From Eucommia ulmoides (Eukaryota > Streptophyta > Magnoliopsida > Garryales > Eucommiaceae), in assembly GCA_016647705.1 (NCBI GenBank), contig CM028333.1:22314243-22378242 (forward strand): a stretch of 64,000 nt of DNA, given 5' to 3'. The stretch's first letter is position 1, and the number at the start of each line of letters is the position of its first letter. A model generated the notes under the pieces. That model did no database searches. It saw only the letters and a program-made list of their open reading frames with translations, and was not told the origin of the DNA. Below, piece by piece: positions 12,357 to 63,728 of the stretch. The position numbers and the translations under genes were made by a program.

Positions 12357-12514
12357 TGTTAAAGTAAAAGAAAGGTAGGAAAAGAATGAGACGACTTAAC
12401 AATTGTGTTAGCCTCTCTCTCTATTTATAATAGAAATAAAAAAATCATATAGCAAATCCTAAACAGTACAGGAAACCCTAAGTAATATGGAAAATACATA
12501 AATATTCTTTAACA
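12357..12514 (-). repeat. 3' LTR of the copia element
   Basis: 158 bp with TG...CA ends. It contains a TATTTATAATAGAAATAA promoter-like stretch and matches the 5' LTR at 25129-25267 over its length with scattered differences and small indels, showing considerable age. Confidence 0.85.
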
Positions 12515-12551
12515 CTCCCCCTCAAATTGGAGTATATATATTGTATGCTCT

Positions 12552-15205
12552 TTACTTGTTACGAATATATTTTATCCTTAAACCCCTCAACAGTTTGGTA
12601 AATATATTAGCTAACTGATCAACTGAATTGACATGTTTAGCCTCAATTTGCTTCTGTAACAATTTTTCTCGAATAAAGTGACAGTCAACTTCAATATGTT
12701 TTGTTCTTTCATGGAAAAGGGGATTGGATTCAATGTGAAGAGCTACTTGATTATAACATATCAGGTCAATCGGTGAAGAGTGTTCAAATCCAAGTTCTTT
12801 CAACAAATGTTTCAACCAAGTTAACTCATAAGTGGTGTGAGCCATTGCCCTATATTCTGATTCTGCACTTGACCGCTCCACTGCCGTCTGTTTTTTACTC
12901 TTCCAAGAGATAAGGTTCCCACTAACAAATACACAATACCCAGTAGTAGACTTCCAATCTGAGGGTGATCCGGCCCAGTCTGCATCTGTATAACCTTTTA
13001 TTTGAGTATGCCTAAAATTTTGATATAGCAAACCGTAACCAGGAGCACCTTTCAGATATCGGAGAATACGAATCACTGTATCCTAGTGACAATTCATTGG
13101 ACGATCCAAGAACTGACTGATAACACTAACAGCAAAGGAGATATCTGGCCTGGTAACTGTCAGATGGTTCAACTTCCTAACTAACCGTCTATATTGCGCT
13201 GAATCTGTCAGTGGTACACCCTAATCTAGCAACAATTTGGTGTTTGGATCCATAGGTGAGTCAATCGGTTTAGCTCCTAGCATTCCTGTTTCGCTCAATA
13301 GGTCAATGACATATTTTCTCTGAGATAGGTAAATGCCTTGACTTGATCGAGTAACTTCAATCCCCAAGACATACTTTAGGTGACCCAAATATTTGGTTTG
13401 GAACTTAATATGTAAAAACTTCTTGAGTTCTTGAATATCACCGTGGTCATTCCTGGTAATTACGATGTCATCCACATATACAATCAACAATATTCTTCCG
13501 ACTTTACTATGCCTGTAGAAGACGGAATGATCGACTCCACAATGCCGAAGACCAAATTCAGTGAACACTGCACTAAATCTTCCAAACCATGCTTTAGGAG
13601 ATTGCTTGAGGCTATAAATAGATTTCTTCAAGCGACATACCAAATCAGACTCCCCCTGAGCAACAAACCCAGGAGGTTGCTCCATATATACCTCCTCAGT
13701 CAGATCGCCATTTAAGAAAACATTTTTGATATCGAACTGATGTAATGGCCAACGAAAAGTAGCAGCCCGAGAGATGAACAAACGAACAAAAACAAGTTTG
13801 GCAACAGGAGAAAAAATCTCATAGTAATCAAAATTGTATACCTGAGTATAGCCTTTGGCAATTAAGCGAGCCTTGAGTCAATCAATAGTGCCATTCGAAT
13901 GAACTTTGACAGTATACACCCATCTACATCTAACTACTGTTTTGTCAGGCGGAAGCGAGACGAGATCCCAAGTGTCATTTTGATGTAAGGCAAGCATTTC
14001 TTCTTCCATTGCTTTTGCCCAACCAGGGTGAGTGAGGGCCTCTGAAACAGACTTAGGAATAGAAATAGAGGACAAAGAAGCAACAAAAAAGGAGTATGAA
14101 GGATATAGGTGTGCATATGAGACAAAGTTGGAAATAAGATGGTTAGTACATGTGCGCTTACCCTTCCTGATGGCAATGGGCATGTCTAGGTTAGACATGG
14201 ATGATTCAACTGGAGAAGAATCTGAGGATACAGAATTGATGGGTGCGATAGCGGAGGCGACGTTCTGGCGACGAGAGTATACCTACAAAGGAGCGGAAGA
14301 GAACGACTAGGCGGGATAGGATCTGGAGTAAAGGAAGATAGTGTAGAGTTTGGTACACTTGGTAAAGGAAGTGTAACATCCAAATCATCTCGAGAGGATG
14401 TGACAGAAAAGTAAAGGGTAGACTCAAAGAATGTAACATCTGCACACACAAATGAGTGACGTAATGATGGACTATAACATCGATAACTCTTTTGTGTGCG
14501 AGAATAGCCGAGGAAAACACATTTTAAAGCACGAGGATCTAATTTGTCCCTTCCGGGAGTCAACTGATGAACAAAATAGACATACCCAAATATTTGAGAA
14601 GGTAAACTAAACAAAGGTGAATAAGGAAAAAGAATGAAATGTGGAACCTTGCTATTTAGGGTAGAGGACGACATCCGGTTGATTAGGAAGCAAGTTGTAA
14701 GAACCACATCGCCCTAGAAGTGTTTGGGAACGTTCATCTAAAAAAGACGAGTACGGGCCACTTCTAAGAAATGTCGATTCTTACGCTCAGCAACTCCATT
14801 TTGCTGCGGTGTGTGGGGATAGAAAGATTGATAAAAGATACCAGAGTGTGACATAAATGAGGTAAATGGCTAAGAAAAATATTCTCGAGCATTATCACTT
14901 CGGAGAATACGCACTGATACATTAAATTGAGTTTTAATTTTAGCATAAAACGCACGGAAAATAGAAATAATTATGAACAATCTTTCATTAAATAAAACCA
15001 AGTAACTCTGAAAAAATCATCCACAAATGTAACAAAATAATGAAACCCCAATGTAGAAGTCACACGAGAAGAACTCGAAACATCTGAATGAACTAAATTA
15101 AAAAGACTCGATGTTCAAATATGAGCTGGGGAAGCAAATGAAATACGATGATACTTACCCAATTGACAATACTCACACTCTAACGAAGACAAATGACTTA
15201 AATGA
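12552..15205 (-). pseudogene. Copia pol remnant: integrase, reverse transcriptase, RNase H
   Basis: Read on the minus strand: a pre-integrase zinc region (CEYCQLGKYHR, about 15165), integrase with SDNAREYFS and TPQQNGVAERKNRH blocks (about 14780-14900), CVFLGYSRTQKSYRCY (about 14480-14520), then reverse transcriptase (RCRWVYTVKV near 13920, QFDIKNVFLNGDL near 13730, YVDDIVITRND near 13450). Last is RNase H with YTDADWAGSPSDWKSTTGYC (about 12990) and SSAESEYRAMAH. Frame breaks and stops (for example TGA near 13875 and TAG between the RNase H and RT parts) separate the pieces. The polyprotein would copy and integrate the element; it is inactive. Sequence recognition ends abruptly at about 15205. 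Confidence 0.9.
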
Positions 15206-17508
15206 GGAACAAGTATGTAAAGTATTTATGTATGTGTATATATACACACACACATGTAGGCCTATTGTTTCTTTTATCAATTTTTAATTAGTAATTATAA
15301 ATTAAATTAATAATTTTATATTATGTATTACTTACGAAGTAAGTATAAACATTTATTTTCTCCTATTACCTTAGATAATTTATGTTATATAGTAAATCTG
15401 CAATAAATTTTACGTTATGTCGGTTGCATGGAAGAATATGAGTGCCCTGTGCATGATAGACCTGCAACTATATTATATAGAGTAAGTAAATTATGGAAAT
15501 CTTATTGGTCGATCTTCAAGCCTGTTTGAAGTATTTGGATTTGTTTCTTTCAACGTTATCAATATGTGTGCTCTATGTATGCCTCTTTCAGTGAATTAAC
15601 AAGTATGAATTTGATTTATGTCTTCATTTTGAATTTTGCTTTCAGCATTAATTTTTTTCAGAGATGGGAGGAGTTGTATTAAGAAGGGGTTGTCAATTGA
15701 GTAGTGGCGACTGCATCCTTCTTAGCATTTATACTGTGTTGAGTAGAAATATTATTGAAGGAAACAAATAGGAGTTTATGCTCTTTCCCACTTTCATATA
15801 ATTTGTTGGTGAATGTTGCGATTTTTAGGTTCTTCATTGTAATTGTAGGTCAATTTGTAGCTAACTTTCAATGTGAATAAAGAACATGAAGCTTGTGATT
15901 GAGGAAAGGGAAAACAGAGGATAAAAAATAAGAATAAAGGAAATCAATACCCAGTTTAGGTGTCTTTTATATGCTATTTGAAATAATGCGCTCACTCAGA
16001 AAAGATAATACATATGATTAAAGAGAGAATAATTTTTTATATTAAGGAAACGTTAAGGATCAAGATAAATACTTGAATATTGGCCAAATGCAAACCATTA
16101 AGAAAAGGAAACATAGGCTTAAAAAACCGTGTGGTAGTTTAGTCAAAATTAAGTTGCCTATATATTTAATCCTATCAATAAGCTCTTGGAAAAAATCATT
16201 ATGCAAACCTACATAGATATAATACAACAAAAACCAATTACTGTAATAAACATGGTGGTCTAATTTGTACGACAATTAACTTGTGATTAATTTTTCTTTT
16301 AATTTTCTTTTAATTCTTACTTTAAAGTGTCACGTTGTTTCTCTTGTATTGTGATCATTTGTGTTTATTTATGTGTTTAATTATATTTAATTATTTGTAG
16401 ATGCAATAGGTCGAACAGGTGATGTGCAGTTCTTAACGATAACGAAGGATTTATATATTGTTCACAAAATACAAAGAAATTATCAAAGGCATTTATGCAA
16501 ACATGTGGTGTTCATTTGCTGTAAGTTTAATTTAAAATAACTTGAAAACCACTTTGCAAAGGCATATGTTCAATTTTTCCTTTAATAAAATTCTATTCAT
16601 TTTCCAAGATAAAATTGATAAACATATATGTGATCTAGATTTGAAAATGTGTGGTCATAATTTTTTTTTATTTTTTTTTTATCCCTATATTTTGTTGTCC
16701 TTTTGAGGGGGAAAAAGACTAAAGTAACAAGACATAATTGTTTAAATCCCCTTAATTTGCTTTCCGTTTAAATTTAGAATTTTGAATTACAAATCCGTAG
16801 TATAACAAAAAAAGAAAACTATATTTATATTTCTGTTTTTTTTTTTTAAGAAAAAAAGGAGAAACAAATACCACCAACTTAATCAGTTAATTGTAGAAGT
16901 GATAACAGTGGATGTATGAAAGATTGTTGTAGGAAATTACTTACCGAAGAGTGATAATAGTAGGAAAGTCAAATCATATGCAAAGATGGGTGATCGCACC
17001 AGTGAAATGAAATGCATACCAAATTCTTGAAGCAAAATGTGTTGCCAAAAAACCAAGAACAATGAGTAAATTGGTGGAAACAAGAAGGTATTTATCATGT
17101 ACATGTCGCACATATTGGATGAAGAAAGACATGATACAATTTGTGCGAAGTGGAAGCCTTTAGACTATAGGTGTCGTGTGAAGTGTGATGTTTGGGTTTT
17201 GTCTGTTCATAATGTTTCATTTTTGATTCACAATAGTGAAATTACAAATTGGATCATTAATTTAAAGTGTTTTATATATATATATATATATCCTTCATCA
17301 TTTTAGTCCATTTTTTTTTTCAATTTATTTGTGTCTTCATAGTAGAGTCATTTTTTATTCAAAGAAAAATAAAGTAAATTGAAAAGGTAGGTATTTTTTA
17401 AAATAATTTAAGGTATGTCTTATCATTCGAATGTCACTTGTCTATTTGTAATATTTCATTGAATAAGAATTATAGATTAGTGAAATTACAAATTGGGACA
17501 ATTATTTT

Positions 17509-17544
<36 letters not shown>

Positions 17545-18393
17545 CCCTTTCTCGTTTTAATCCATTCGTGTTTTTTTTTTTTTTTTTTTTTTCCATTTAT
17601 TTTTGTTTGCATAGTAGAGACATTCTTTATTCTAAAAAAAAAAGTAAATCGTAAAAGTAGAGGATTTTAAAAAAAATAAAGTTTTTTTTATTAAATAAAT
17701 TAATGTGTGTGAAGTATACAATATTTCTTATCATTCGGATGTTATTTGTGTACGCTTTGCATAAATGGATGTATACTTTTTATAATAGGTCTTTTCTTTT
17801 TTAAAATTTTAATCGTGATTATTTTGGAAGCTCAGTATTGTTTCCCGCTACATGTAGATTATATGTTGATGCAGTGGAAAAATCATGTTGTATAGAGTAT
17901 TTTTTAAAAAATCTCACATGGGCTATTGATGTTTAACAAGTGAGTGGAAAAAATCTCATATGGCCTTTGGATCATAATGATTGATGTTTAACAAGTGAGT
18001 GGAGCTGGGGATTCTCGAGGACGAATAGGTTACATATATAACTATTATTTTCACTATTTGATTGGGAGAGTAATTTGCACATGCTAAAAGATTATCTGCA
18101 TAAAATCTTCATAATAAGTCAAGACGTTTTTTTTAAATGTCATTTCGGTAACAGGTGAAATTTATTTGAAGGGAATGGATGTATGAGATTGAATTATGAA
18201 AGCATTTGGGGCAAAAAATTTCGGCCAAAATTTTCAAACCCCCACGTTAAAGAACGTTAAATTAAATTATATTTTGTGCTCTTTAAATTTTACATTTGTA
18301 TTTAATCGGCCATGTCATAGTTTGTTGTACTTCTTTCTGATTGGTGAGAGTTATTGGAGAATCTCCTTGCTTCTTATTTTCCTTTTACTCAAA
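15206..18393. other. Left part of foreign DNA inside the copia element
   Basis: AT-rich DNA with no gene that I can support. It holds an interrupted AC/TA microsatellite near 15235-15255, poly-T runs at about 17512-17545 and 17570-17592, and a diverged local duplication: the segment with GTGAAATTACAAATTGG near 17235 recurs near 17480 with about 250 bp of following sequence. A second small repeat (GATGTTTAACAAGTGAGTGGA) occurs at about 17928 and 17983. Confidence 0.5.
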
Positions 18394-18427
18394 TCATTTT
18401 TCTCTACTTATTACTTCTTCTAAATTC

Positions 18428-18789
18428 TCACAATAAGAAATTTTAATAGTTTTCAAGTTTGGAAGGCAAACAAGCCACGTTAGGCTTTCGATTTTGTTGC
18501 ATGAGAAAATACAAACCTCACGAAGGTTAGGGTAGAGTTGATAACTCCAGTTTACCACTTCTGTTTTCTCTACTACTATGTGATCAATCACTATATCTTC
18601 AATGCTCCAACAACTATCAAACACCGCGGTCTCTATTCCTATCACGTGTGATAGAGATAAGACATCAAAAGTGGGGAGGGATTCCATTCCTTTGAACATT
18701 AAACTTCTATTGCAACTTTGTGATGTTAGAGAACTCGAGAATCTTTGAAAAGAAGATACAAAACTTATTGTGGTACCCAATGTAGTCAA
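18428..18789 (-). pseudogene. CC-NBS-LRR resistance gene fragment (LRR region)
   Basis: The reading frame ends in YPNLREVCIFSCNKIESL, then TWLVCLPNLKTIKISYCENL, then EEVISREK. Spacing of Leu and the Asn-Leu...Cys...Leu-Glu-Glu-Ile/Val-Ile pattern is the RPS2/RPS5-type leucine-rich repeat found near the C terminus of CC-NBS-LRR proteins. Such receptors detect pathogen effectors in the cytoplasm. There is no NB-ARC domain (P-loop, GLPL, MHD) nearby, and the frame covers about 120 residues of a protein that is normally 900 or so. It is an isolated piece. Confidence 0.7.
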
Positions 18790-18879
18790 GCATTTACATG
18801 TAACAGAATTGAACTTTGAATGTATGTCGATTCAAATTTTGATTTCACACCATTGGCAAATTGTCGAACAAGTGGTGTG

Positions 18880-19440
18880 CAATGGAAAAAAAAGGGTTTC
18901 AAACATGTATTGTCCAAATGAAGGATGCAGGAGGAGTTACATAATATTCAAGAAACATAAAATTGTGGGTCGCAAAGGTTAGGGAAGTGAGAGAGAAGAA
19001 GTTACCTCTTTGGTTTTCTTTGAGTTGTGTGGAAAACTGCTAGCTAAGTTCGGTTGAAGACGGTTTGCGAATTCGAATTTCATAGAATTAGTAGAGGTGG
19101 CTAGACAATTACGGAGGACGCGGTTGGTGGTTTGTGGTGCGCCAGTTGTCAGTATGTTTGGTGTCGATTGGGCAATAATTAAAAGGAATGGAAGGTGAAT
19201 GAGGGTGGTCAAGTTACGTGGGGGTTGTCGACGATTGGTTTGTGAAGTTGTGTTAGCGAAGGTATTGAAGATGGAGGCCATATTGGATGCATGGTGTTTG
19301 GAGACATGGTGTTTGATTGTAAGATGGGTGTTTAATTACCAAAGGGTATAGTGGGTAAATTGAAATGTTTCCAAATAGTATCATTTTTTTTTAATTGAAG
19401 TAGATAGATTGGCAATTAGGTGTTACTTATGGGGTGAAAA
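18880..19440 (-). repeat. Direct repeat, copy L (promoter, exon 1 and intron start)
   Basis: Shares ordered blocks with about 23990-24640: GGGTCGCAA(A/G)GGTTAGGGA, the exon 1 region with GGTGGTTT(G)GGGTG and GTGTCGATT-like strings, and a promoter block (AAATGTTCCAAA). The two lie 5 kb apart in the same orientation and bracket the ER-body-like fragment, which suggests an old segmental duplication of a gene's 5' end. Confidence 0.6.
19006..19281 (-). CDS. Possible first exon of an unrecognised protein (plastid-type N terminus)
   Basis: An ATG opens a 92-codon frame beginning MASIFNTFANTTSQTNRRQ, rich in Ser, Thr and Asn with few acidic residues, and with a hydrophobic patch HLPFLLIIAQ. This is compatible with a plastid transit peptide. 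It ends in frame at a good donor (AAAGAG then GTAACT). A diverged copy of this exon with its promoter and intron lies at about 24100-24430, where the frame is disrupted. I do not recognise the protein and found no confident second exon just downstream, where the LRR fragment lies. It may be a partial gene copy. Confidence 0.4.
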
Positions 19441-19523
19441 AGGTACACTTTTTAAATTCCAACAATTTGTGGTACGAAAGAATAAGTTAATTAATTACTG
19501 ATAGTAGGAAGGAAAATTCACTC

Positions 19524-20057
19524 ACATCATGACCGATGATGAAAAGTCGGCCAACCAGATCATTAGCTAATCCCAAAGCTAAAATATTCATTGCATTAAA
19601 TTAATTAGTCAGATTGCACAAAGCGGTATATTCATGGTTCTGAAAATATGAATAGCTTATAAAGTAATTTATGTACTCAAAGAAATCACAAAACCAATGC
19701 ACTAACACCACTATAGAACCAACGAAATAGTTGCACTTATTCGCATAAGATCTTCCGTGGAGGCACAAAATTAAGCACCTGAAAAGAAGTAATCTACAAT
19801 ATACTTACATGTGGCAGCTTCAGCACCAGCTGTAGATGATACAACTCCCAGGCTTGTAATTGACTCAATTAACCCGCCACATACGATGCTCTTAATTATA
19901 TCAACCTTGTTAACTTCTCTTGCTTATGTGGCTCTTTGTTCTGACAAGTGAATATGAGCCTCAATACAGGGTGAAGCCGGAGATATAATCACATTCTCTA
20001 TTGTTTTCCCAACTATTGATTCAAATGGTACTTCCATAGTAATTATTTTATCCTTGC
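19524..20057 (-). pseudogene. Membrane protein of ER body-like (VIT/CCC1-type) fragment
   Basis: One exon (19809-20057) ends with VDIIKSIVCGGLIESITSLG, then VVSSTAGAEAAT, followed by a GTAAGT donor. The next piece (about 19524-19595) reads NILALGLANDLVGRLFIIGH before a GTGAGT donor. The order IVYGGLIESITSLGVVSS then LNILALALANL..GLFIIGHN is the conserved transmembrane part of the membrane protein of ER body family (MEB1/MEB2-like, related to vacuolar iron transporters). A TAA stop interrupts the first exon just before AREVNKVDIIKS, and the second exon has no clear AG acceptor. The rest of the membrane domain is absent. It is a broken partial gene. Confidence 0.65.
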
Positions 20058-20526
20058 CTGCATCGTATTGTAATACCAAAAAATTGACAAATAAGTTCAT
20101 TATAGACAAATATATTGAGAGCTATAAGAGGACACAACTACAGCACCACCAGACTAGTTGCTTACTAAACAAAGCCTGATAACTTAAAATCAGACTGCTT
20201 AAGCCAAGTACTACTAATGGTCTGCTTGGCTCTTTATTCATAAAATTGACACACTATCTTCCATAGCTTAACGGGAATTGATTGCAAAGCGCACACACAT
20301 AACAAGGTATCCAGGACAATGAATTATTAGAATGCATTCATAAAGAGCACATTTACGGGGGAAAGGTAAGGGAGTTGACAAGATTGCAACATTAGGAGAT
20401 AGCTCCTTTCCGAAAACACTGAATGAGAGGGAATTTTTTTTTGCTTGCTATCCAAATTAGATAAGGGAGTCTTTTTGGAACAATTAAACTTTCTATTTCC
20501 TGAAGATTTTATTACCTTTATAGAAT

Positions 20527-20735
20527 TACCTTGAAATGTTATTATTTTTACCTGCATCACTTTTTTCTATAGCATTCTTCAAATCTTTGGCAACGATAAC
20601 TATTTTATCAACTTTCAAGGATTCTTCCATTGGTTGATATGATGTGCTAAGGAACATTAAAGGGATGAATTCCATCCTCATTGCAAAATTAATGAGGATT
20701 AAGTCAAATTTAATAGAAGTTACAAACCATGCCAT
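20527..20735 (-). pseudogene. Possible upstream exon of the ER-body-like fragment
   Basis: Frame with MEESLKVDKIVIVAKDLK followed by NAIEKSDAG and a GTAAAA donor. The next exon begins after an identical GATGCAG acceptor context and continues DKIITMEVPFESIVGKTIEN. Charged, low-conservation sequence of this kind precedes the membrane part in MEB-like proteins, so linkage is inferred from position and splice phase only. Two further exon-like pieces on the same strand lie near 21980-22030 (FVDKDACEQAYFK before GTACAT) and 23475-23540 (PELKLSKIIKRETVYAMHSL before GTGAGT). Confidence 0.35.
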
Positions 20736-21593
20736 TAAAGATGAAAGGATGTGCTAGAAAGTTTAATAGGATGAAGTTATCTATAAATGCAAACATAACT
20801 AAATGCTCTAATAGAAGGCCCATATGCAAAACTGCCCAATTTCTTTTTCCTTTGATCACAATTTTTGAACTTCCTTCATTTTTTTTAGAGTTTAGCGGCA
20901 GCTTCTTGAGCGCGCGACAATCGATTATTTTGCAGAGTTTTCGAGCAATGGAAAAGTAGGGAAGTAACATAGATGCTCTTTAGCCCCTAAAGACTTTATT
21001 ATTTTTCAGATATATTGTAATTTGTGTCTAATATAGTGTCTTTTCAGTATCATGGTTGAGGAAAAAAGGAAGAATGAATGTTGTGAAGAGATGATGGATA
21101 ATAAAAAAGGCTATCATTACTTCTTGCGTGATTGGGTGATGGATGGTAATAAATAAAAGTAGAATGGACGTGAATCATAATTAAGTATGAGCATGCATGC
21201 AGATGCAAGAACCTTCTCCACAATTTTACTAAATAAAGAAAGGAAAAATTGTTTTAATTGGAAATTTTGAAAGAGATATGTGTGAACACCCGAAAGTGAA
21301 AAAGGTGGGGGAGGGGAAAGGTTTTGCCAAATGTAAGGAAAATATATATTTGATTTTGAATTTGAAGAGATTTTTAATTTTCAATTTAGAACAACACAAT
21401 TATACTTTTGTATTGGTCACATGGCGTTGGAGCTAGGGACCTCTCTTATGTTCACCTTCTCTGTAGCTTGTATAGAAACAATTGGGGACTGAAAAATATG
21501 GAATTTTAAATTTTAAAAGGCCAAAAAAGAAGAGAAGGGTTTGGCCGCGCTGGAAAACAATTCATAAAATTTGAAAACAAGAATGTTAACAGT
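20736..21593. other. AT-rich stretch, no gene supported
   Basis: Reading frames on both strands near 20710-20970 are mutual shadows with no recognisable motif. The remainder is AT-rich intron-like or intergenic sequence. Confidence 0.4.
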
Positions 21594-21811
21594 GTTAAGA
21601 CCATCTAATAAACATAGAATAAAAGGTAGGCCAGGGTTTATTATTGAAAATAATGAATACTAAGTTACAATAAAAAGGCTTAATAAACTTATATAGGTTT
21701 ACAAAGAAAATCCTAAGAAAGAATAGAAGACCATTGCACCCTTAATACTAAATAAATATAATCTATTATAAAAAGGAGTACATAGCAATTTCTTGTTGTC
21801 AACATTGCCTT
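21594..21811. repeat. Possible solo LTR (about 218 bp)
   Basis: The block begins TGTTAAGACCATC and ends GTTGTCAACA, and it contains a TTATATAGG element as in small LTRs. No clear 5-bp duplication, primer site or polypurine tract flanks it, so the call rests on the ends and composition alone. Confidence 0.35.
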
Positions 21812-22562
21812 GTGTAAGTATCAGTAGAGATTTAACTTAGTTGATGCACAAGATAGAAAAAAATGTATCTGAGTTGAAACATGGTGGAAGGATGAAACAT
21901 ATCAAGGTAGCCTGATATCCATGCATTATGTATTATTCAAGTATGATGACAAGAAAAATAATTGCAGATCCTCAATGTACCTTAAAATATGCTTGTTCAC
22001 ACGCATCTTTGTCCACAAACTCTAGCACAACAACAAAAAAAAAATGCGTAGGTTAGATCATCATACATACTATTACACGTCAAAGCTAGAGAAAACAAAT
22101 TAGGGAGTCAAAACTAATAATAGGCACATGGGGAAAAATCTTTTTTTTTTTGGAGAGGGGTGGGTGGGCAAAAACACGTTATCTTTTCTCATTTTCTATA
22201 TCTGCGCAGTTGGGATGTAATAGGGTTGAAAGTCCAACTAAAAATTAAGGCTAGTTGAATCAATTTTCATCATTTCTACATTATTCACTTCCAAGTTTTA
22301 AGAATGTCCCCTTTTAAACAGCAAAAGAAATATCTTATCCACTAAATAACCCTTTGATAATTTTTCAAGATGAACACCACTGAGCTACTTTTGGTAGTTT
22401 CAATCCTTCAACTTGTATAGTCATTCCTTCAATTTATATTTTGCTATGAATCACAGCAATTCCGTGGAACTAATTTCCAATAGCAACAAATCACAAGAGA
22501 TATTGATGAGAGGGAGATATCATATCCCACATTTGCATGCAGCATGCTAATGGAGAAAATAA

Positions 22563-22743
22563 GGTGGCTTTTGGTAACCATTTTTGTTTCCATTCCAGCA
22601 GTGGGATGGGAATGGGATGGGATGGGATGAGAATTTTGTATTCTTTTTGGGAGTAGAATCGCATTTGGTAACGATAATTTTTTTTTTTTTTTTTTTTTTG
22701 TTTTGGGAAGGGAATTGTGTTTGGTAATCATTTTATCTTAAAA

Positions 22744-22784
<41 letters not shown>

Positions 22785-23185
22785 CCTGTTTTGGCCTGAC
22801 GGCGGTGGCGCCGTCGCCGGCGGCCGGCGGTGCTCCGGCGTCGGAGAAGGCGGTGGCCCCCCGCCGGCGACTCCGGTCGGAAGTGGCCGGAAAATTCCCG
22901 GCTTGCGGCGGCGGCGGCGACAGTGACAGGAGGGCGGCGACGGCGGCGGGCGGTGGGCGGCCGGTAGATGAATAGTAACTATGTGTTTTGGGAATGGAAT
23001 GGGAATAATGAGAAACAACTTTTTTTTGTTTCTCATTTCTTAAGAAAAAAGTGAGCACAATTCTCAAATGGGAATGAAATGGAAACGGAAACAAAAATTA
23101 CCAAACGCTATTCCCAAACAGAATTCCCAAAAATCTGGGAATGGAATGGAAATTTCTGGGATGGGATGAGTTACCAAACGGGGCC
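22563..23185. mobile_element. Tourist-like element (623 bp) with TAA duplication and GC-rich core
   Basis: The left end GGTGGCTTTTGGTAAC is the imperfect inverse of the right end (GGCCCCGTTTGGTAAC on the minus strand), flanked by TAA at 22560-22562 and 23186-23188. This is the pattern of PIF/Harbinger MITEs. Between long T runs (about 22680-22698 and 22745-22784) and the right arm lies a core at about 22795-22970 made almost wholly of G and C (GGCGGTGGCGCCGTCGCC-like). ORFs here translate the core and the poly-T and are not genes. Confidence 0.75.
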
Positions 23186-23989
23186 TAAGTTTCTCAATAT
23201 GATTCACCTACATATTAACAAGTGGTTTAATGCTAACACTAAATGACTGCGTTGCAAAGCCTGCAAACATCAAATGGTCTATTGTAGTACCATTCAGAAT
23301 TCAAACTAAAGATGCAGTATATATATTACACAATGAAGCTAGGCAAGAAGGCAAATAGGGGCTCTTCTCGTGACGTATTATCTCTAAGAGATTCATGAAA
23401 GTAAATGATGTATTTCCCTCATTCTTCCATTTATCCTTTTTTCGTTGGGAATGAGACCAAAGAAAATGATACTCACCAATGAATGCATAGCATAAACTGT
23501 CTCCCGTTTTATAATCTTGGATAATTTAAGCTCTGGCACCATAATTAGTGCTTCCAAACACCATCTAAGATGCTTTATTACTTAAATCAAATGTTGAGTA
23601 CATTACTATATACCTCCCTTTCCTCCTATCCTCCCAAATTTGAAAAAAAATAGAAGTGCAATTCCATTTCCATTTAAATGCTACCAAAGCCTGCACAAGA
23701 AGCCCAGAAACTTGAAATCAATTTTTTTTCTTCTTCAAGGAAACGTATTTTTCATTGGGTCTCGTTTTTTTATTAAACAAAATCTTGGGAGGGAGGGATA
23801 TCGTATTTTGGGCTTTGTTTGGGGCGATGTATTCGCGTTTTGGAATGACAGAAATGTACCGAGTTGTTTCTGTAGAGTTTCGCATGGGGTGGACTTGCAT
23901 TTTGTTCATTTCGCTGCTTAATATAGGGGTCGTGTAAGTATGTCCAAGGGTTGGCGTTTTGTCGTACAGTTGGTGTGCAATCCAAATAA

Positions 23990-24640
23990 AGTTTAAAACA
24001 TGTGTGTGGGTGAAGGATACAAAAATCAGAACTGGCCATGTAGAATATACAAAAATCAGAAATCATGTGGGTCGCAAGGGTTAGGGAGGAGGGAAAGTAG
24101 AAGTTACCTTATTTTCCAGTGAATTGTGTCGACGAATATCCAATTTGACAGAAGTTCCTTGATTCTGGCGAGGTTGGTCAATGTAGGCTGCGTGAATTGC
24201 GATTGCAGGAAACAGAGCGAATAAGATGAATTTCGTACTTCTTATCATCTACCGGCGGAGATCAATAGTTATACTACTGATCGAGATAATTCGTTGCTGA
24301 TTCGCAACTTCGGATTGTCAGACGCAAGGGATTCGGTGTGACAGTTAGGGCGGATGTCAGTGGTGGTTTGGGGTGTGCCGTATGCCGGTTTGTTATGCGT
24401 CGATTAGTTCGTCCTGGAAATGAATGTAAGGTCGAACTTCGAAGAGCCAAAGAGGTTTGTCAATTTACTGGGTTTCAAAGCCGTTTGATTTGGGGAGTTT
24501 ATTAAAGTTTAAAAAGTCATATTGAACTGGTGTCGTTTGGTTGGACAAGTGTGGTTTGGTTTGTCATTTTCTTAAATGGACAAGGGCATTATAGGTATAA
24601 TAAAATGTTCCAAAACAGTAATCGTTATTTATAATGAAAG
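23990..24640 (-). repeat. Direct repeat, copy R (disrupted exon 1 region)
   Basis: Partner of 18880-19440. The donor context (TTACCTTATTTTCC on the plus strand) and the GGGTCGCAAGGGTTAGGGAGG block are kept, but I could not follow an open frame equivalent to the 92-codon exon. Confidence 0.55.
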
Positions 24641-24699
24641 TGGATTGAGGACGAAAGTAAAAAAAAAAAAGACGAAAGTACAAAAAAAAAAATAGAATA

Positions 24700-25128
24700 G
24701 GTAAGGAAAGGGGTTACTGTTCGAAACGGCTTATTATGCCGTAGTGGTGGTAGAAGATTCGATCGGAGCCGTCGAAGGGTGGAACGACGTTGGCGAGCAC
24801 CTTAGACGACGTCGGTGAGTGCCTTAGACGACGTCGGCGATGACGAAGATGGTCGGAGCACGGGTGGTGACCGTCGGAACAGTCGACGCCGGATCTGACG
24901 ACGACGACGAGCGTCGGAACTGAAGACGCCGGCGGCGAAGTAGGATCGGGGCTGCGGATTTAGGGTTTTGGTTTAGTATCGGCAAAGTAGGATCAGCGCA
25001 GTTAGGGCTTTGTTTTTTTTTTCTCTTTTGAACACGATAGGGAGGGGGAACGAAAAGAAAAAAAGAAAAGAAAGGTTTAAACGAATGGAAGAACAGAACT
25101 ATGAAAAATTTACCAGCTCTCGCTACCA
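24700..25128 (-). other. 5' leader of the copia element
   Basis: Lies between the 5' LTR/primer site and the foreign DNA. It is locally GC-rich with CGACGTCG repeats (about 24780-24930) and CT-rich on the minus strand. The gag gene that should follow is missing. Confidence 0.5.
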
Positions 25129-25267
25129 TGTTAAAGTAAAAGAAAGGTAGAAAAAGAATGAGACGGCTTCACAATCGTGTTAGTCTCTCCCTCTATTTAT
25201 AATAGAAATAAGAAAATTATACAACAAACTCTAAGTAATATAGAAAAAACATAAATACCCTTTAACA
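25129..25267 (-). repeat. 5' LTR of the copia element
   Basis: 139 bp, TGTTAAAG to CTTTAACA on the minus strand, partner of 12357-12514. The primer-binding site starts at once at 25128, going down. Confidence 0.85.
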
Positions 25268-25359
25268 GATGTTAATATAGAAGTTGTATACAAAAAATAT
25301 GGTACACGTCCTTTTGCTGATTTGGTTTTGAAGAGAGGAAGATAAATATCTTTCTCCAT
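25268..25359 (-). pseudogene. CslE: First codons of CslE copy 2 exon 1, cut off by copia
   Basis: ATG at 25359 opens MEKDIYLPLFKTKSAKGRVP, followed by YFLY. This matches the start of the intact copies ([20 protein letters not shown] and [13 protein letters not shown]). It runs into the copia LTR after about 30 codons, and the rest of exon 1 continues at 12356. Confidence 0.88.
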
Positions 25360-29200: not shown

Positions 29201-32200
29201 AAATATGTAGAAAATACTTGTCTGTTTGGCTTGCGATTTCAAAAATGCTTTTTTAGACTCGGAAACTGCTTGATGAAAACATAGTTCCTGGATTTATTTG
29301 AATCTCTTTCCTTTCAAATATTTGTTAGAGTTGGAATCAAATTTAGTAAGAGTACCTGAACAATGGGGTGGTGATCTCTTTTGCTGGAGACTGAATCCCA
29401 TTCTCGAAATCCTTTGTGCTGTTTGTATACTTCTTCAGGTATTCTTCCCAGCTTTGTAATGCCTTCAATTCGTGTCTTTGTTTCCTCGTATAATTTCTAC
29501 AACCACAAACTAAGGGATTCAGGGACTGTTTTGGCTTTCGCTCTTATTGAGTTTTCCATGTTTTATTTACTCAAAAAAATAATTTTTTGGGTAATGAGCT
29601 ACGGTTTTACCATATGAAAGACGGATAGTTACATCCACCTCTCGGTTTGTCCAAATAGTAGATAGATATCCTATCCCTTTTCAAAACTATTCTGACATCC
29701 CTTATTTATAACATATGTTATTTTGTTAAGAGAACATGTGAAATGACTATTTGGTCCTCTGACTTTTTGACACCTTTGAATAAGTATAAAAATCATCTCA
29801 CAGTTTGCTTGCATCATCAGTTTAAAAACTTAAAGGCGCATGTCTATGTGTGTGTAATAAATTGCCTACATTTCCCTCCCGCTCCCGGCCCTTCTCTTTA
29901 TATATTTACATAAATGATATAGAAGAGAAAATTATTTATTCATCAAAAGTAATTTTATCTATTTCTTTATCTATTTAAGTTAAAGACGATAGGAATATCA
30001 CAATCATCCCTTTTGTTTAAATATGAGAGAAAAAATTGAACTACACCTTTTTAATTAAAAAGTTGCTTATAACATTTTCTTATTTATTTTTATTATATAT
30101 GGTGGTAAAATTGATTATAACATTTTCTTATTTATTTTTATTATATATGATGCTAAAATAGTAAATCACATGTTTAAATAATTTTCATTTCTCTCATTTT
30201 TCTTTCAGTAACAATCTAAGGTGCTATATTGTCATTCTTTTACATCCCCGCTACAAATAAAAATAAAGCGAAAAAATAAATTTCCATCAAGTGAAGAAAT
30301 GATAATGTTTTTCAATCAAATGTATTGATTTTTTGTTTTAATTCTTTGTAATAAGGATAGAATGGATTTGATTTATTCCGGTTAGAAATGTTAAGGTACT
30401 CTGTATTTAGTACCAAGTGTCAAGTGTAATTTACCCATTTTTTGTGAAAAGGAATCTGATTTAGTTCAAGAAGAAGAAAACAAGTGCATATATTACCTTG
30501 ATAAGCGAACATTCTTGATCCATCATTGGATCATCGGATGGTGGTTCATATACATCCGAAAAATAAGCCTCTGGCGACAGAGGTTCTATTTTCCATTTCT
30601 TGCAAAACGGCAACCAATGCTTTGAGAAATTTGAAGCTTCCAAGAGAGCGTAAAACATCAAGTTGGATCCGCCGTCGTCGGAGAGATAAACACTCATCTT
30701 GTGTGGAGGATAATCGTAAGCCATCATTGACAGAACGGTGTTTATTACCATCATCGGGGGCTCTAATATGGGGTCCGCCGTGCACACAAATATGTCTATC
30801 CCTGGCAACACCTCCTCGTATCTATATGATATTTTAGCATAACATTCTCATTAAGTTTTATAAAATAATTTAATAAAGTATATGTTATGTTTTCTTGAAA
30901 AATTATTATATTATCTTTTAATTATCATTATCTATTCATGTTTTCTTTTTATTTATTTTTTAATACTTCTGAATAAATTTATAGTCATACAATTAGGATA
31001 TTATTTAGATTGAATTTATCTAATTGATATCAACTAGATATTGAATTTGTATTTCACATCATAGATAAAGTCTACTAAAATGTTGGAAATAACTAAAGAA
31101 TAAGTTGGTAGGGGGTTAAAAAATAAATTGCTCTAAAAACATGACAAAAATATTAAATAAAAGACTATATAATAAGAACCCTTAATGTTTTGGGAAATGC
31201 TATTAAAGCTCCATGATATTTAGTTATGTTGAATCCCATATCGCTTGTGTTACCTGATCCTGAGCTATATATAAAACTAAATGCAATCCTCTTCTTACAA
31301 GGCGTCTTTTGAGAGTAAGTTAGGCCCATTAAAATTACTACATGGTATCAGAGCCAAGCTTTTCTTTGATGTTGGGCGTGTTAAATCCCACATCAATGAT
31401 GGGCCCCCCCGATATCCATTCGCAGTGGTTTGTCAAATTCCACCCTGCGCGTTAGGGGGCGTGTTGAATCCCACATTGATATTGGGCCTCCTGATATCCG
31501 TTCGCAGTGGTTTGTCAAAATCCACCCTGCGCGTGAGGGGGCGTGTTGAATCCCACATCGCTTGTGTTACCTGATCTTGAGCTATATATAAAACTAAATG
31601 CAATCACTCTCAAAAGATGCCTTGTAAGAGGAGGGTTGCATTTAGTTTTATATATAGCTCAGGATCAGGTAACACAAGCGATGTGGGATTCAACACGCCC
31701 CCTCACGCGCAGGGTGGACTTTGACAAATCACTGCAAACGGATATCGGGAGGCCCAACATCAATGTGGGATTCAACAAGTTACACTCAAAATACACTAGT
31801 TTTAAGACGGCTAAATAATGAATCTAGCATAAAATTAGACATTTTTGGAGTGCCAATAGGGTTTCCTATTTTTTTTGTGATCTAATTGAAAGGAGACTTC
31901 AATCAAATTTTAGGATCTTAATTTTTTTTTTTCTCCTTAAAAAGTTATGAATGAAAATATTATTTTTTGGATAAGTGAGTGAGTTTGAGTTTTTTAATAA
32001 TTTATATTTTAGAGAGAAGATGTGTGTCTAGCAAAAGAGAGTTACATGTGTTGGACTTGGGGACCATTTTAGGGGAAAAGGGAGTGATTTTCCATGCCAC
32101 AATATCATATGGTTTGAGGAAAAATCCTTGATTCATTGGAAGCGCAATCAGATTTTTGCTTAACTTTTTCTAGCAGCAATTGTCCATTCCATATGGAAAG

Positions 32201-39219: not shown

Positions 39220-41234
39220 TCAGTACAATACTAATAAGCAAGCGAATATTGCTAATCCTAGTGACTGATATGTAACAGATGAGGGCATGCGACCTTGGTC
39301 CTTACGGAAAAACAACCCTTGGTACAAAGGTACGTTGATGATTAAGACCGACCCGCATAAGATTAGCTGAAGAGCCAACGTATCTAAATTCCCTGAATCA
39401 CCAATCACCTTCTTAATACCTCCAAAAATACAAAACATGTCGATTAGAGCCATTGTTGCCAAGATAGTGAACATCAGTGAAGAAACTCCGAATTCCATGA
39501 TCTCTTGCTCGTACCTCACTGTGACATCCTCGTCGGAGACCTTTTCGGTGATCACGAAACCCGATTTGGATAATCCTGAGGTCTTGAGTATGGTTTCGCA
39601 GATTGCAAAGAGGTAAGAGGTTAGTCTTCTATACAACCATATTCTCTGATCATTCCACCAACCTTTGACCGTCCCTTCACACCATAGAAACTCAGCAAAG
39701 CTATAGCTGTACTTTGCTATGATGACATACACGTATGGTAGGATCCATGGGCTTGAAAACTGTTGACACAACAAAATTCATCGATAAGAAGATGTGGTAG
39801 AGTTGTGTGATAAGTATGTCAGGAAGAACTCGAGGATTAAGCATATAATATCGGCGTATGAGATTAAGCATGTTGAGAGTTAACGATATGTTTGGTCTGC
39901 AATCTGATAATAGTTTTTCGAAGGCTAATCTCATTTTACACCCTTGAGTTTTATATGTTGCTGATGTTCTAATTTTTGCATATTGCTCCATAATTTTTTT
40001 TTCCGTGCCTGACATACCCTATTGACCACTTCGGCCAATTTACTTGCTATAGTCAACCATGTGAAGGAAAAATAACGGAATAAAAATGTGATTGGATTTC
40101 ACTTTGCACCCTTGGTTTGTAGTTATAATCTGAATTGACTGGATATACTGTAACTCCGGTAAAAGTTCATACCTTTGGAAAAACGGAGATGCCTTCTAGG
40201 AGACAAAGTGCAGGGACTAGGCAATAGTATAGTGTGGGCAAGCAGTTTGGAGCCCATAGCAAACAGCAGCAGTAGGAAAATTGGAGTTTGAGAGGTATTT
40301 TTCCATGCCCAAGTATGAAAGGGCAATACTTTGAGCAGAAAATCTGAAAATCACCTTCTGCCCATCTTTTGTGCTGTACCAGTGTCTGCAGCAATGTTGT
40401 GGGAGCAACTCCTAGGAATCCCTTCCTTTCTGGATCGAAATGCACGGATTTCCAGCCTCTGCATTGTATTGACAATCCCGTGATCACATCTTCCACTGGG
40501 CACCCATATATTAGTCCCATCTGTCACTTACGAAATTCACTTTTAGACAAATATACATGCATTCATATATATGTACATATGCATGTATATAAAATAAATT
40601 ATGACGGGTATAAGATCAGGGATATTTTTCTACCTTCTAATATCCTATGAGATAAATAACAGTACAGATTAAATATGAATTACCAAAAACCCTAGGTCAT
40701 ATTGTCAGCTGCCAATCCCTCTCTTTCCCAATTTACCTTTCTTGATTCTGTTCCTCTCAAAAATAAACATTCCTTCCTCAAAATCAAGCCCTTCTCTCTC
40801 TTTTGGAAAGTATTTTTATGGCGCTCTAGAAAAGTCAAGGCCTAAAAATCCATTCTAATTCCTCTCTCTCAGAAAAACCCAGCTTCACCACAATCAAAAT
40901 TCTGTCTGATTAAAACGTTTTCTTCACTCTTGTAGAAACCTAATGGGTCTAACTCACTCTCAAATGACACCTCGCAAGAGGAGGATTGCCGTAGATTTTA
41001 TATATAGTTCAGGATTAGGTAACACAAGCGATGTGGTATTCAATGCGCCCCCTCACGCATAGGGTGGACTTTGCCAAACTATTGTGAGCGGATATTGGGG
41101 GGCCCAACATCAGTGCGGGATTCAACAACTCTCTCTCACCATCTTTCTCTGGCACCCTCGCTCTTGCTCTCTCCCCGCCAAGTACATCATCTTTTTTCTG
41201 AACCTGTCTTGCCATATTGTTTTTGATTTCAATT

Positions 41235-47200: not shown

Positions 47201-49734
47201 CTAAATAGGAAATAATACTATTAAATATTTCAACACTCTCACTCAAACTGGGACGAAGTTGTTTCAGAATCCGAGCTTGACAGGAGTAAAAACGAAAGAT
47301 GGTAAGTGTCAGGCGATCAATAGCAATAATTGGAACGTTGGGTGACCAACGACGACAATTGGAATGTTGGGCGACCAACGACGACAATTGGAACAACTAG
47401 AACATCAGACGACATACGACGATAACTGGAACGCCAAGCGACATGCGGGGACAACCAAAACATCGGGTAGGTGACCAATGGTGACAACTGGAACGTTGGG
47501 CGACCAATGGTGACAACTGGAACATTTGGTGACATACGACAACATGAATGTCGTGCGACCAATGACGACAACTGGAACATTGGACAAACAACGATAGCAA
47601 CTTGAATGCTCAATGAGCAACGATGACAAGTAAATTGCCAGATAATAGTCGCGTGGGAGATGGCTAGAGAGGAGGGCCAAAATGAGGTTGAGGAGAAGGC
47701 AGTCCTATTGTAGGACAAACAAGGACGCAAACAAGACCTCCAAACGCTGCTAGGCAAGGTTGCGAATCTAGATAGTAGGGTCGCGGATTAGGAGATCCAA
47801 ACACAGCTATGGCAAGGTTGAAAATCTAGACATCAAAGGAATGAACAGGATGACAGGCGCTGTGGCAACAGATCTAGATAGCAGAGACACGAATTGGGCA
47901 GCAGGAGCAGCGGCAATAGATCTGGATGGCAGGGGCACGAACAGGACAACTGAGGCTGCAACAACAGATTTGGACAGTAGGGAGCCGCAATAGCGTCGGT
48001 GGCTTTGTGAGCTGCCGCCCACCAGGGTAGTTTAATTTTTTTCCCCTATGGCTTTGATACCAAAAAGGATTTTGGGGAGGAATGAAATAATTTTATTATG
48101 ATCTAATAATTATATACAATAAGGCTTTACTCTCTCTATTATATGACTACAACGGTGGGCTCAATTAGAAAATATATTGACCTAATAAATGGACAATTAA
48201 AGCAAAACAGAAATAAGAGCAAAATACTAAAAAATAAAAAAATGCATGGATGAAAATATTAAATATGTCAACAATATTAGATAAAGGGCCATATAATAAT
48301 TAAAAAAAAAAAAAACCCTTAATTTTTTCTGTGAAATACTTTTGGCTCTTCAATATTCAGTTGCACTCAAAATACACTAGTTTAGGTTGGATAAATAATG
48401 AAACTAGCGTGCAATTAGACATTTGGGAGTGCGAATAGTGTTTCCTATCTTTTTGTTGATTTAATTGAAGTTAATGTAAAAGGAGACTTCCATCAAATTT
48501 TTGGGATTTTAATTCATTTCGTAAGAAGTTAAGAATAAAAATATTATACTTTGAAAAGTGGGAGTAAGGTTGAGCTTTAAATAATTGTAAATAAAATTTA
48601 TATTTTAGAGATAAGATATGTATGTCTACCAAAAAAGAGAGGTAGTTTTAGATGACCATATATGACGTCTAGTCCACTTTGGTAAGCTCAAACTTGGGAC
48701 CATTTTAGGGGGAACGGGAGTGAGTTTCCATGGCCCAAGATCATATGGTTTAAGGAAAGAATCCCCGGCCAGTGTCCTATTCTATAGTTAGCTGCTCTTG
48801 GAAAATCTTGGAATTCTTAGCTAGTGAGTGTCAGTTAACCACGCAGGATTCTCTGGAGGTGGTGTTAAATTGGGACTTGTAGAAACCCAATGGGTCTAAT
48901 TCACTCTCAAATGACACCTTAGAAGATGGGGATTACCCCTAGACTTATATATAGTTCAGGATCATGTAACATAAGCGATGTGGGATTCAACACGCCCCCT
49001 AACGCGTAGGGTGGACTTTAACAAACAACTGCAAACGGATATTGGGGGAAGGGCCCAATATCGACGTGAGATTCAACAGGGCCTGATTCATTGGAAGTGC
49101 AATCATATTTTAGCTAAACTTGTTCTAGCAGCAAGTGTTTATTCCGCATGGAAAGATAGAAATGCCAGGATCTTCGTGCAATTGAATAAAGATGTGGATG
49201 GTGTGCAGAGGGAAATATTTTTTTATGATTCAGAGTTGCAGTCAGAAGAAAAGAAAAATGGGGAACTTAGCAGTCGATATGTGTAGCTTGTGTTTTGTAA
49301 TGTTGGTTTTGGTTTGATTGTTGTTAATTTGTTATACCATGCTTGTTTTTCTTGGCGGTCGTGCTTTTCGTTTTTTTGCCTAGGAGGCTGTTTCCCTTTT
49401 AGTGCTTAGTTATTTTTTTTTTTTTTTTTTTTTAAATAAAAAATAAAAGAGGACAGTGTGACCTTTGTGATAGCCTGTCCTTGAACGTATAGCGACGGCT
49501 GAGATTCCATCGGACTGTTTGGGTGACAAGCCAGTAGAAACCGAACCACACCTCGGCCAAGAACAAACCAATCCAGGCCAGTCTTCCGGCTTCCCCGGGT
49601 GCTGGTACACTACTAACCCTGTGACCAAAAACAAAGCATACGGACACCAGCACTGAAGCTGCGTACAGAGAATATGGGAGACCTGTCTTTACTGACCTAA
49701 TTTCGAAGAGAGGAAGATAACCATTTTTTCCCAT
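39220..49734 (-). CDS. CslE: Cellulose synthase-like protein E, copy 4 (intact, 731 aa)
   Basis: Same predicted role as copy 3: a membrane GT2 glycosyltransferase of the secretory pathway. Exons: 49463-49734, 45884-46208, 44689-44829, 44430-44561, 44138-44350, 43805-44029, 40173-40520, 39220-39759. Each has exactly the length of its copy 3 counterpart (2196 nt in total). The start [18 protein letters not shown] was chosen for its match to other CslE N termini; an upstream in-frame extension is 5' leader. Catalytic motifs are kept: SDDGGS, DCD, VED, QHKRW. The last codon of exon 3 is CTG instead of CAG, changing Gln to Leu beside the donor. Introns 1 and 6 are expanded to over 3.2 kb by LTR elements, a LINE remnant and a Helitron candidate. 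An intact frame does not prove expression. Confidence 0.9.
40931..41131 (-). mobile_element. Solo LTR of the small LTR family, ACTCT duplication
   Basis: 201 bp, TGTTGAATCCCGCACTGATG to GGTTTCTACA on the minus strand, flanked by ACTCT on both sides (40926-40930, 41132-41136). It defines the true LTR of this family as about 200 bp, containing a repeat of its own first 12 bases about 83 bp in. Confidence 0.85.
41240..42540. repeat. T-rich degenerate repeat tract in intron 6 of copy 4
   Basis: After a T run (about 41240-41279) the segment TTCTTAGAAGAGTGAGAACA or a variant recurs near 41382, 41683, 41810, 42070, 42270 and 42478, each followed by an A-rich then T-rich block. It is an irregular array of decayed units of roughly 130-300 bp. 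The Phe-rich ORFs here are composition artefacts. Confidence 0.5.
44885..45190. mobile_element. Short element with two direct terminal blocks in intron 2 of copy 4
   Basis: Blocks at about 44895-44985 and 45095-45185 share AAAG(G)AG(T)T/CACTCTAC-like and ACCATATG(G/A)TTTTA(A/G)GTTG strings in the same order, separated by about 110 bp of unrelated sequence. This resembles a TRIM made of two small LTRs. Single blocks occur in introns of copies 1 and 3. Confidence 0.45.
45300..45640. repeat. A-rich low-complexity tract in intron 2 of copy 4
   Basis: About 250 bp of AAAACAAAAA-type sequence with runs of A. Its reverse frame reads as poly-Phe and is not a gene. Confidence 0.7.
46209..47030. other. 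Intron 1 of copy 4, proximal part
   Basis: AT-rich. An approximately 170-bp segment (TTTAATTAT-rich with GTTTTCTTTxTCTTTAT and TATTAAxTAGATTG blocks) is present twice in tandem (about 46225-46440 and 46440-46640). A short A run lies near 46680. No gene. Confidence 0.45.
47031..48273 (-). mobile_element. Short non-autonomous LTR retrotransposon with ATATT duplication
   Basis: LTRs at 47031-47235 and 48063-48273 in minus orientation start TGTTGA. A primer site TGGTATCAAAGCC lies at 48050-48062 and a weak purine tract (TTTGAGTGAGAG) beside the other LTR. ATATT flanks both sides (47026-47030, 48274-48278). The LTRs end CCAAAATC(A/C)TTTT rather than CA. The interior has no gag or pol; it holds a 30-bp minisatellite and a related CAGATCTAGAT(G/A)GCAG-type repeat (about 47790-47990). 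Confidence 0.82.
47325..47620. repeat. Minisatellite inside the short LTR element
   Basis: About nine imperfect units of roughly 28-31 bp on the theme GGAACGTTGGGCGACCAATG followed by (G/A)(C/T)GACAACT. Reverse-strand frames give repeated CRHWSPNVP-like peptides, which I regard as repeat-driven. Confidence 0.8.
48279..48886. other. Intron 1 of copy 4, shared with copy 3
   Basis: Matches 31777-32110 of copy 3 (CACTCAAAATACACTAGTTT and ATTAGACATTT blocks). It includes the empty site for the palindromic element (about 48358) and the start of the LINE remnant. Confidence 0.55.
48700..49440 (+). mobile_element. LINE ORF2 end remnant in intron 1 of copy 4
   Basis: After the solo LTR the frame reads [20 protein letters not shown] then WKDRNARIF and [11 protein letters not shown]. 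This is the zf-RVT-type C-terminal region of a plant LINE ORF2. It ends in a T run near 49411-49431. Its counterpart is at 32110-32490. Confidence 0.65.
48887..49078 (-). mobile_element. Solo LTR of the small LTR family in a LINE remnant
   Basis: TGTTGAATCTCACGTCGATA to GGGTTTCTACA on the minus strand, about 192 bp. The flanks GGGACT and GGGCCT are near-identical and may be the diverged duplication. It interrupts the LINE remnant, which reads through uninterrupted in copy 3. Confidence 0.7.
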
Positions 49735-63413: not shown

Positions 63414-63728
63414 TGTAGAAATTTTAATAGGCCTAACTCACTCTCAAAAGACGCCTTGTAAGAGGAGGATTACCCTTGGCTCTATATATAGCTCAGGATC
63501 AGATAACACAAGCGATGTGGGATTCAACACGCCTCCTCACGCGCAGGGTAGACTTTGACAAACCACTGCGAATGGATATCGGGAGGCCCAACATCAATGT
63601 GGGATTCAACATGCCCCCTCACGCGCAGGGTGGACTTTGATAAACCACTGCAAATGGATATTGCGGGCCCATCATTAATGTGAAATTTAACATACCCAAC
63701 ATCAAACAAAAGTCTGACTCTGATACCA
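63414..63728 (-). mobile_element. Small LTR element: LTR, internal part and primer site, lacking its own 5' LTR
   Basis: On the minus strand: primer site TGGTATCAGAGTC (63716-63728), a short internal part, purine tract GCGTGAGGGGGCA, then a full LTR 63414-63611 (TGTTGAATCCCACATTGATG to ATTTCTACA). The LTR matches the solo LTR at 40931-41131. Where its upstream LTR should stand, a copia LTR (63729-63887) is joined directly to the primer site. Confidence 0.8.

Follow-up and report, generated by a model that had tools for sequence, protein, structure and literature searches.

A 551-bp insert (31227-31777), a non-coding TRIM (miniature LTR retrotransposon), was found in an intron in the 64,000-nucleotide stretch of Eucommia ulmoides DNA analysed here (the window). 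It entered in one insertion with an exact target-site duplication (TSD) and an empty paralogous site, carries U3 at both ends and arms of one source, and has a layout that recurs at a second locus, L070. With a probability of roughly 0.6, this partly palindromic molecule would have arisen when surplus plus-strand strong-stop DNA primed back on a plus-sense strand and integrase used the U3...U3 product. The features are given below by window position.

31222..31226, no strand: target-site duplication, left, AGTTA (sequence)
31227..31342, plus strand: left LTR, short form, 116 bp, TGTTGAATCCCATATCGC...ACTACA (sequence and alignment; short starts end 8 direct loci with exact TSD)
31343..31355, plus strand: primer-binding site TGGTATCAGAGCC (sequence)
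31356..31461, plus strand: remaining internal domain, with an 82-bp-type unit (sequence)
31454-31461, plus strand: PPT1, purine tract AGGGGGCG closing the internal domain (sequence)
31462..31605, plus strand: 3' LTR, long start 31462, short start 31544, cut off at 31605 (sequence and alignment)
31535-31543, plus strand: PPT2, inner purine tract GAGGGGGCG within the 3' LTR (sequence)
31604..31607, no strand: fold-back junction with 2-nt microhomology (GA, minus strand), turn between 31605/31606
31606..31777, minus strand: long-form LTR arm in inverted orientation, with its U3 start at 31777 and truncated in the R-like region (sequence and alignment)
31778..31782, no strand: target-site duplication, right, AGTTA (sequence)
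48251..48450, plus strand: empty site of the paralogous intron (about 48.36 kb) in gene copy 4, with AGTTG once (flank alignment)

The original prediction had placed an element with AGTTA duplicated at both edges at 31222..31781. The duplication is exact and the location correct, but the right edge was drawn one base short, as AGTTA runs to 31782. The left terminus of the insert is TGTTGAATCCCA and the right terminus is the reverse complement of TGTTGAATCCCA; in the terminal comparison (left TGTTGAATCCCATAT; right, as reverse complement, TGTTGAATCCCACAT) 14 of 15 bases match. Beyond this terminal motif the ends differ, the left one going on CATATCGCTTG, the start of the 116-bp LTR form, and the right one CACATTGATG, the start of the form of about 198 bp. 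The idea that both outer ends are the same LTR end therefore holds in that both are U3, but the two ends use alternative U3 starts 82 bp apart. The turn-back had been put at 31606, with 142-bp arms and a 32-bp spacer, and this description was borne out: the 3' LTR turns at 31605/31606, and the arms (31462-31603 and 31636-31777, 142 nt each, with a 32-nt spacer) are complementary at 136 of 142 positions. All six differences between them are transitions, and AACTAAATGCAA is common to the three LTR segments of the insert, unlike the other three window copies, which indicates that the arms were near-identical at insertion. The primer-binding site presumably matches the 3' end of the initiator Met tRNA. 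No ORF of 120 aa or more was found inside the insert, the minus-strand open stretches reaching at most about 60 codons.

The full LTR of other window copies is about 198 bp long and is made up of an 82-bp part, which begins TGTTGAATCCCACATTGATG and ends in a GAGGGGGCG-like purine tract, and the 116-bp part, which begins TGTTGAATCCCACATCGC. Within this LTR, U3 starts occur at two places separated by 82 bp, each preceded by a purine tract; the insert ends on the left with the inner (short) and on the right with the outer (long) start. One window copy is a solo LTR at 40931-41127, flanked by AGAGT on either side. Direct relatives were collected from the genome (946.7 Mb, 391 contigs), in which the TRIM family gave 5,127 first-look candidates, 40 of which were scored. 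This left 28 distinct direct loci, that is, 29 of the 30 recovered loci minus one duplicate (L021 is the same as L017), the 30th being the window copy. An exact 5-bp TSD was present in 20 of the 28, 12 with the outer and 8 with the inner start, a split that is approximate because several elements are present in each of L007 and L022 and the choice of ends there varied between analyses; 8 of the 28 had no exact TSD. Since both U3 starts terminate direct copies with an exact TSD, both make integration-competent ends, and the sequences would be explained most simply if both purine tracts can prime plus-strand DNA. Tandem TRIM arrays with a period of about 316 bp were seen at L017, L018 and L027; one exact TSD encloses 1463 bp in L017 and 1145 bp in L018.

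The site in gene copy 4 had been described as empty, and the alignments agree. The insert flanks joined by one AGTTA aligned to 48251-48450 with a score of 161, far above the best of 300 shuffles (49.5), and the left flank alone scored 63 against at most 41 for shuffles. A 5-bp match at a spacing of 556 occurs at 121 of 63,439 window positions, and the value expected from local composition is 0.0022; the probability of a chance TSD match at the insert is about 0.2-0.3%, and on this probability two separate insertions with a chance TSD were rejected. The exact AGTTA pair together with the empty paralogous intron shows that the inverted unit entered in one integration, as had been proposed with the idea of one integrase-type insertion of an already inverted molecule. 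A sister allele with direct LTRs and the same AGTTA duplication was not found; in the genome search the right flank matched only its own locus and copy 4, so that such an allele would hardly be findable.

L070 is nearly a replicate of the window copy. It is 553 bp long against 551, is flanked by the TSD CTTAC/CTTAC and repeats, in mirror orientation, the layout of the window copy: the solo arm carries the long U3, the turn lies in R, and the full arm closes with the short U3. The polarity agrees, and the fold sites differ by a few bases at most. At its left end L070 has TATCGAATCC instead of TGTTGAATCC, and its junction is GAGAGTGAGTGA/ATTACC, GA being common to both sides; read from the solo arm, the junctions are GAGAGT-GA-TTGC in the window copy and GAGAGTGAGT-GA-ATTACC in L070. 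Because the two belong to different sequence variants (AACTAAATGCAATC in the window copy against TGTAGGGGTAATTC in L070) and have different TSDs, they were taken as independent events. The window copy, L031 and L070 all fold in R, and in each the antisense part begins no more than about 3 nt from a common AATC site; L031 turns at almost this position too, but with reversed polarity, a gap in its R part and its left end lost. L033, L034, L039, L041, L069 and L076 fold at other sites. A strong R hairpin driving the fold-back was also considered and was weakened, as the R inverted repeat folds no better as DNA than its shuffles (-1.8 to -3.6 kcal/mol; 45, 100 and 128 of 200 shuffles fold as well). 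What we claim from these three loci is a putative preferred fold site rather than a stable hairpin. The recurrence of the fold site across loci supports template switching, one of the two causes suggested in the original prediction, as the likely cause.

Inverted loci were sought genome-wide (946.7 Mb) by exact patterns for inverted TATA-box pairs; diverged copies are missed by such patterns, so the counts are lower bounds. Inverted TATA boxes lie 21-85 bases apart at at least three loci (the window copy, L031, L070), 81-145 bases apart at at least three (L033, L034, L076) and 141-205 bases apart at at least one (L039, by one of two patterns, the other giving none); the reversed-pattern controls of the six scans gave zero. 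The proposed search for further copies with inverted LTRs and 5-bp duplications thus yielded more cases, but the duplications are not present in all of them. A further pattern, requiring CTTTTGAGA near an inverted TATA box, was biased, and its loci are unusable as evidence of fold-site preference; it gave 33 matches against 115 for the reversed-pattern control, so that most matches are uninformative. Three of these matches gave no locus. The 30 loci obtained (L040-L069) comprise 11 without an LTR match, two repeats (L054 is L031 and L059 is the window copy), nine with LTR parts on both strands (L041, L048, L049, L050, L051, L052, L065, L066, L069) and eight with LTR parts not on both strands (L043, L046, L053, L055, L057, L060, L062, L068).

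Readable inverted units with U3 at both ends number nine: the window copy, L033, L034, L039, L041, the L049-L051 group, L069, L070 and L076. The TSD at the U3 edges is exact in three of them (AGTTA in the window copy, GATTC in L034, CTTAC in L070), matches at 4/5 positions in L033 (CAAAT/CAAAC) and at 3/5 in L039 (AGAAAT/AGAAT with one base gapped), and is absent from the edges in four (L041, L069, L076 and the L049-L051 group). In 3000 trials, random edge pairs matched at 5/5 positions in 0.27% and at 4/5 or more in 2.4%; offsets of up to 3 bases bring the random 5/5 rate to 6%, so matches at the edges alone were counted. L069, L076, L049 and L051 reach 4/5 solely with offsets. L049, L050 and L051, related copies with a worn left end, were tallied as one group. 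The tally excludes L031 and L066, each of which lacks an outer end, L052 and L065, whose outer ends look complex or truncated by eye, and L048, which has normal U3 and U5 ends. A long-U3 solo arm is combined with a short-U3 full arm in the window copy, L033 and L070. This rule is reversed in L041, the solo arm is short in L066 and L069, and short U3 ends stand on both sides of L034, L039 and L076; among these six loci L034 alone has an exact TSD.

Several other arrangements were observed in these searches. The unit at L048 (1319-1575) has normal U3 and U5 ends flanked by CAAAC on either side and an inverted LTR piece inside, which is what two strand switches would give. L049, L050 and L051 (C7, 6.28-6.33 Mb) and two matches on C112 are LTR-LTR palindromes of about 200 bp without an internal domain, and the several related copies suggest that this palindrome was apparently amplified along with its surroundings. 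L076 (1468-1653) is likewise an LTR-LTR palindrome, of 186 bp, without an internal domain. L065 (940-1520) consists of inverted copies whose U5 sides meet (CCATTAAAAATTTCTACA facing its reverse complement), with truncated outer ends. A head-to-head search gave four loci (L035-L038), none of them clearly a joined U3-U3 junction of one insertion; at L035 (1490-1530) two short U3 ends face away from each other, 10 bp apart with TATTTTATCC in the gap, and may stem from two insertions at almost one position.

The inverted molecule could have been made in other ways. Host end-joining could have linked two separate linear cDNAs, or one cDNA and a piece of LTR, tail to tail ahead of integration, leaving two free U3 ends for integrase to use. 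Junction sites do vary among loci, and L034 (left end GGTTGAATC in place of TGTTGAATC) fits this explanation better, since both of its arms have internal parts and its junction begins exactly at one arm's U5 end, with about 20 bp missing from the other arm and no clear microhomology (by eye). Nevertheless, the window copy and L070 agree in layout, polarity, length, GA microhomology and near fold site despite their different variants, and in both of them, as in L033, one arm is just one LTR, which should be rare for random cDNA pairs; we regard end-joining as a rather unlikely source. The 2-nt microhomology itself fits polymerase switching and end-joining alike. The start of the L034 junction exactly at the LTR terminus is also what strand transfer by a U5 end would give in self-integration (autointegration) of the cDNA before insertion, the other cause originally suggested. 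For the window copy this cause is contradicted, because the junction GAGAGT/GATTGC lies in the LTR interior on both sides, without the CTACA end that integrase would use; as the junctions of L031, L070, L041, L066, L069 and L076 are also LTR-interior (by eye), self-integration appears highly improbable.

Rearrangement after insertion, by which an ordinary direct element or two nearby insertions would be left with an inverted LTR, could account for loci where the TSD or an outer end is missing (L031, L041, L049-L051, L066, L069, L076). The exact AGTTA at the U3 edges and the otherwise continuous empty site of the window copy would, however, need either a base-exact inversion or the 0.2-0.3% chance, and such a history is very unlikely. 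Inverted terminal parts are also found in foldback DNA transposons and in DIRS elements, which have a tyrosine recombinase and inverted terminal repeats. Against both stand the LTR, primer-binding site and purine tracts in LTR-PBS-PPT layout, the 5-bp TSD, the lack of an ORF of 120 aa or more and the direct relatives, which are LTR-internal-LTR with an exact TSD; both assignments were rejected, and an origin of either type has practically no probability.

Backward priming by surplus plus-strand strong-stop DNA would have proceeded from a minus strand that carried two purine tracts, both priming plus-strand DNA during reverse transcription. The strand from the inner tract would have been transferred normally, giving the short left LTR. 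A second strong-stop DNA, with the outer-tract start (long U3), would have undergone displacement or a pause in R, found a match of 2-3 nt on a plus-sense strand (itself or the displaced plus strand), annealed there and been extended back as minus-sense DNA up to the left end of the cDNA, after which integrase would have taken both U3 ends and made the 5-bp duplication. Since the TRIM shows no coding capacity, reverse transcriptase and integrase would have been supplied by another element, presumably Ty1/copia-like. In the model for Ty1 and Ty3 the PPT acts as primer repeatedly, later products displacing the first one, which carries a 12-nt tRNA copy, and dead-end strong-stop products accumulate in Ty3 particles (PMC5371799). 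The solo arm of L033 consists of the whole long LTR plus 10-13 nt of the primer-binding site and turns back through a common GGC. A first plus-strand strong-stop DNA extended into the tRNA 3' end should have this composition, but so could a 5' LTR-PBS fragment broken off a cDNA.

Several points weigh against backward priming. The R inverted repeat is weak as DNA, and snap-back on the short strand alone would miss the internal domain, so that a template jump is needed. L031 deviates in polarity, and TGTTGAATC is replaced at the left ends of L070 and L034. As a general rule the mechanism meets varying fold sites, an arm rule that fails at several loci and four units that lack a TSD. The wider proposal, that palindromic TRIM insertions are fossils of surplus strong-stop DNA, that duplication of the purine tract in this family provides two plus-strand starts per minus strand, and that the outer-tract strand repeatedly primes backwards at the R site or, as in L033, after a 10-13 nt tRNA copy to give a reproducible U3-U3 class, is tentative and on balance doubtful. 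If true, it would show plant PPT recycling from genome sequence alone. Aberrant integrants preserve traces of reverse-transcription intermediates for which particles are otherwise the one place of observation. The record in the window suggests alternative plus-strand starts and backward strong-stop priming in a plant element, and the palindromic insert indicates that the integrase of a plant element will accept a molecule bearing U3 at each end.

The genes of the window are cellulose-synthase-like by two of three ORFs (Pfam), the third, a pol-like stretch at 12.6-13.1 kb, giving no family, and the insert lies between exon-like minus-strand ORFs at about 32.5-32.9 kb and 30.46-30.85 kb. The suggestion that a transcript could form a long hairpin gained support from folding, the arms as RNA being predicted to form a very stable, near-perfect hairpin (-276 kcal/mol, z -37, 100 shuffles). 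The insert would be a ready-made intronic hairpin, and small RNAs can arise from structures of this type. Elsewhere in the window, at 63414-64000 on the minus strand, the end of another LTR element (LTR ending TTTAACA), which we take to be copia-like by its pol-end motif, is followed directly by the TRIM primer-binding site, internal domain and 3' LTR. Judged by its sequence this is a chimera joined at the LTR/PBS border, and it may point to a helper element. LTRs related to the TTTAACA-ending element (minus strand, starts 25267 and 12514) also bracket a long stretch at 12357-25267, and exon-1-like pieces of the neighbouring gene copy lie beside both bracketing LTR ends (12176-12356 and 25289-25359), so gene copy 2 was probably interrupted.

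The window copy has the features of a TRIM: it is 551 bp long, lacks any ORF of at least 120 aa, and has the primer-binding site TGGTATCAGAGCC, the purine tracts AGGGGGCG and GAGGGGGCG before the U3 starts and the 5-bp duplication AGTTA; but because U3 is inverted at both ends and its relatives have direct LTRs it was filed as an aberrant insertion of a TRIM family and not as a normal TRIM. A Cassandra TRIM, for which 5S rRNA-like LTR sequence is expected, was rejected, as no Rfam family reached the gathering score in 31000-32000. Inverted members inside one exact TSD, as in an inverted TA-TRIM, were found in the window copy, L034 and L070; the window copy differs from an inverted TA-TRIM in having one internal domain plus an inverted LTR, not two whole inverted TRIMs. 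Palindromic retroviral cDNA forms are inverted, LTR-bearing unintegrated DNAs of animal viruses. They were not met in the literature searched, nor was a paper on integrated U3-U3 TRIM palindromes, most subscription journals being outside that literature.

PPT recycling in Ty1 and Ty3 resembles the present case as a source of surplus LTR-length plus-strand DNA, the first form with a tRNA copy; it concerns yeast, and the surplus DNAs are described there as dead ends, not as integrated palindromes (PMC5371799). The complexes that template switching left in Triticeae, rice and maize (Angela, Squiq and Opie) are likewise aberrant reverse-transcription products inserted as a unit and flanked by TSDs, but they have three direct LTRs, with a switch between the R regions of two RNAs, and the main text uses none of the words inverted, palindrom and antisense (Sabot and Schulman 2007, PMC1950507). 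In maize, a TRIM array with inverted members inside a TSD was reported in 2016 (PMC4717578), also a small, non-coding, inverted LTR element with a 5-bp TSD and about the same length. It belongs to another family, its array type is named in a legend and it was checked by PCR and sequencing; no inversion mechanism is given in the portion available. The available parts of PMC4717578 and PMC1950507 were not found to describe a pair of U3 starts, fold junctions resolved in sequence, an empty site or a replicate, whereas the ends, the fold junction, the empty site and a replicate locus are resolved here.
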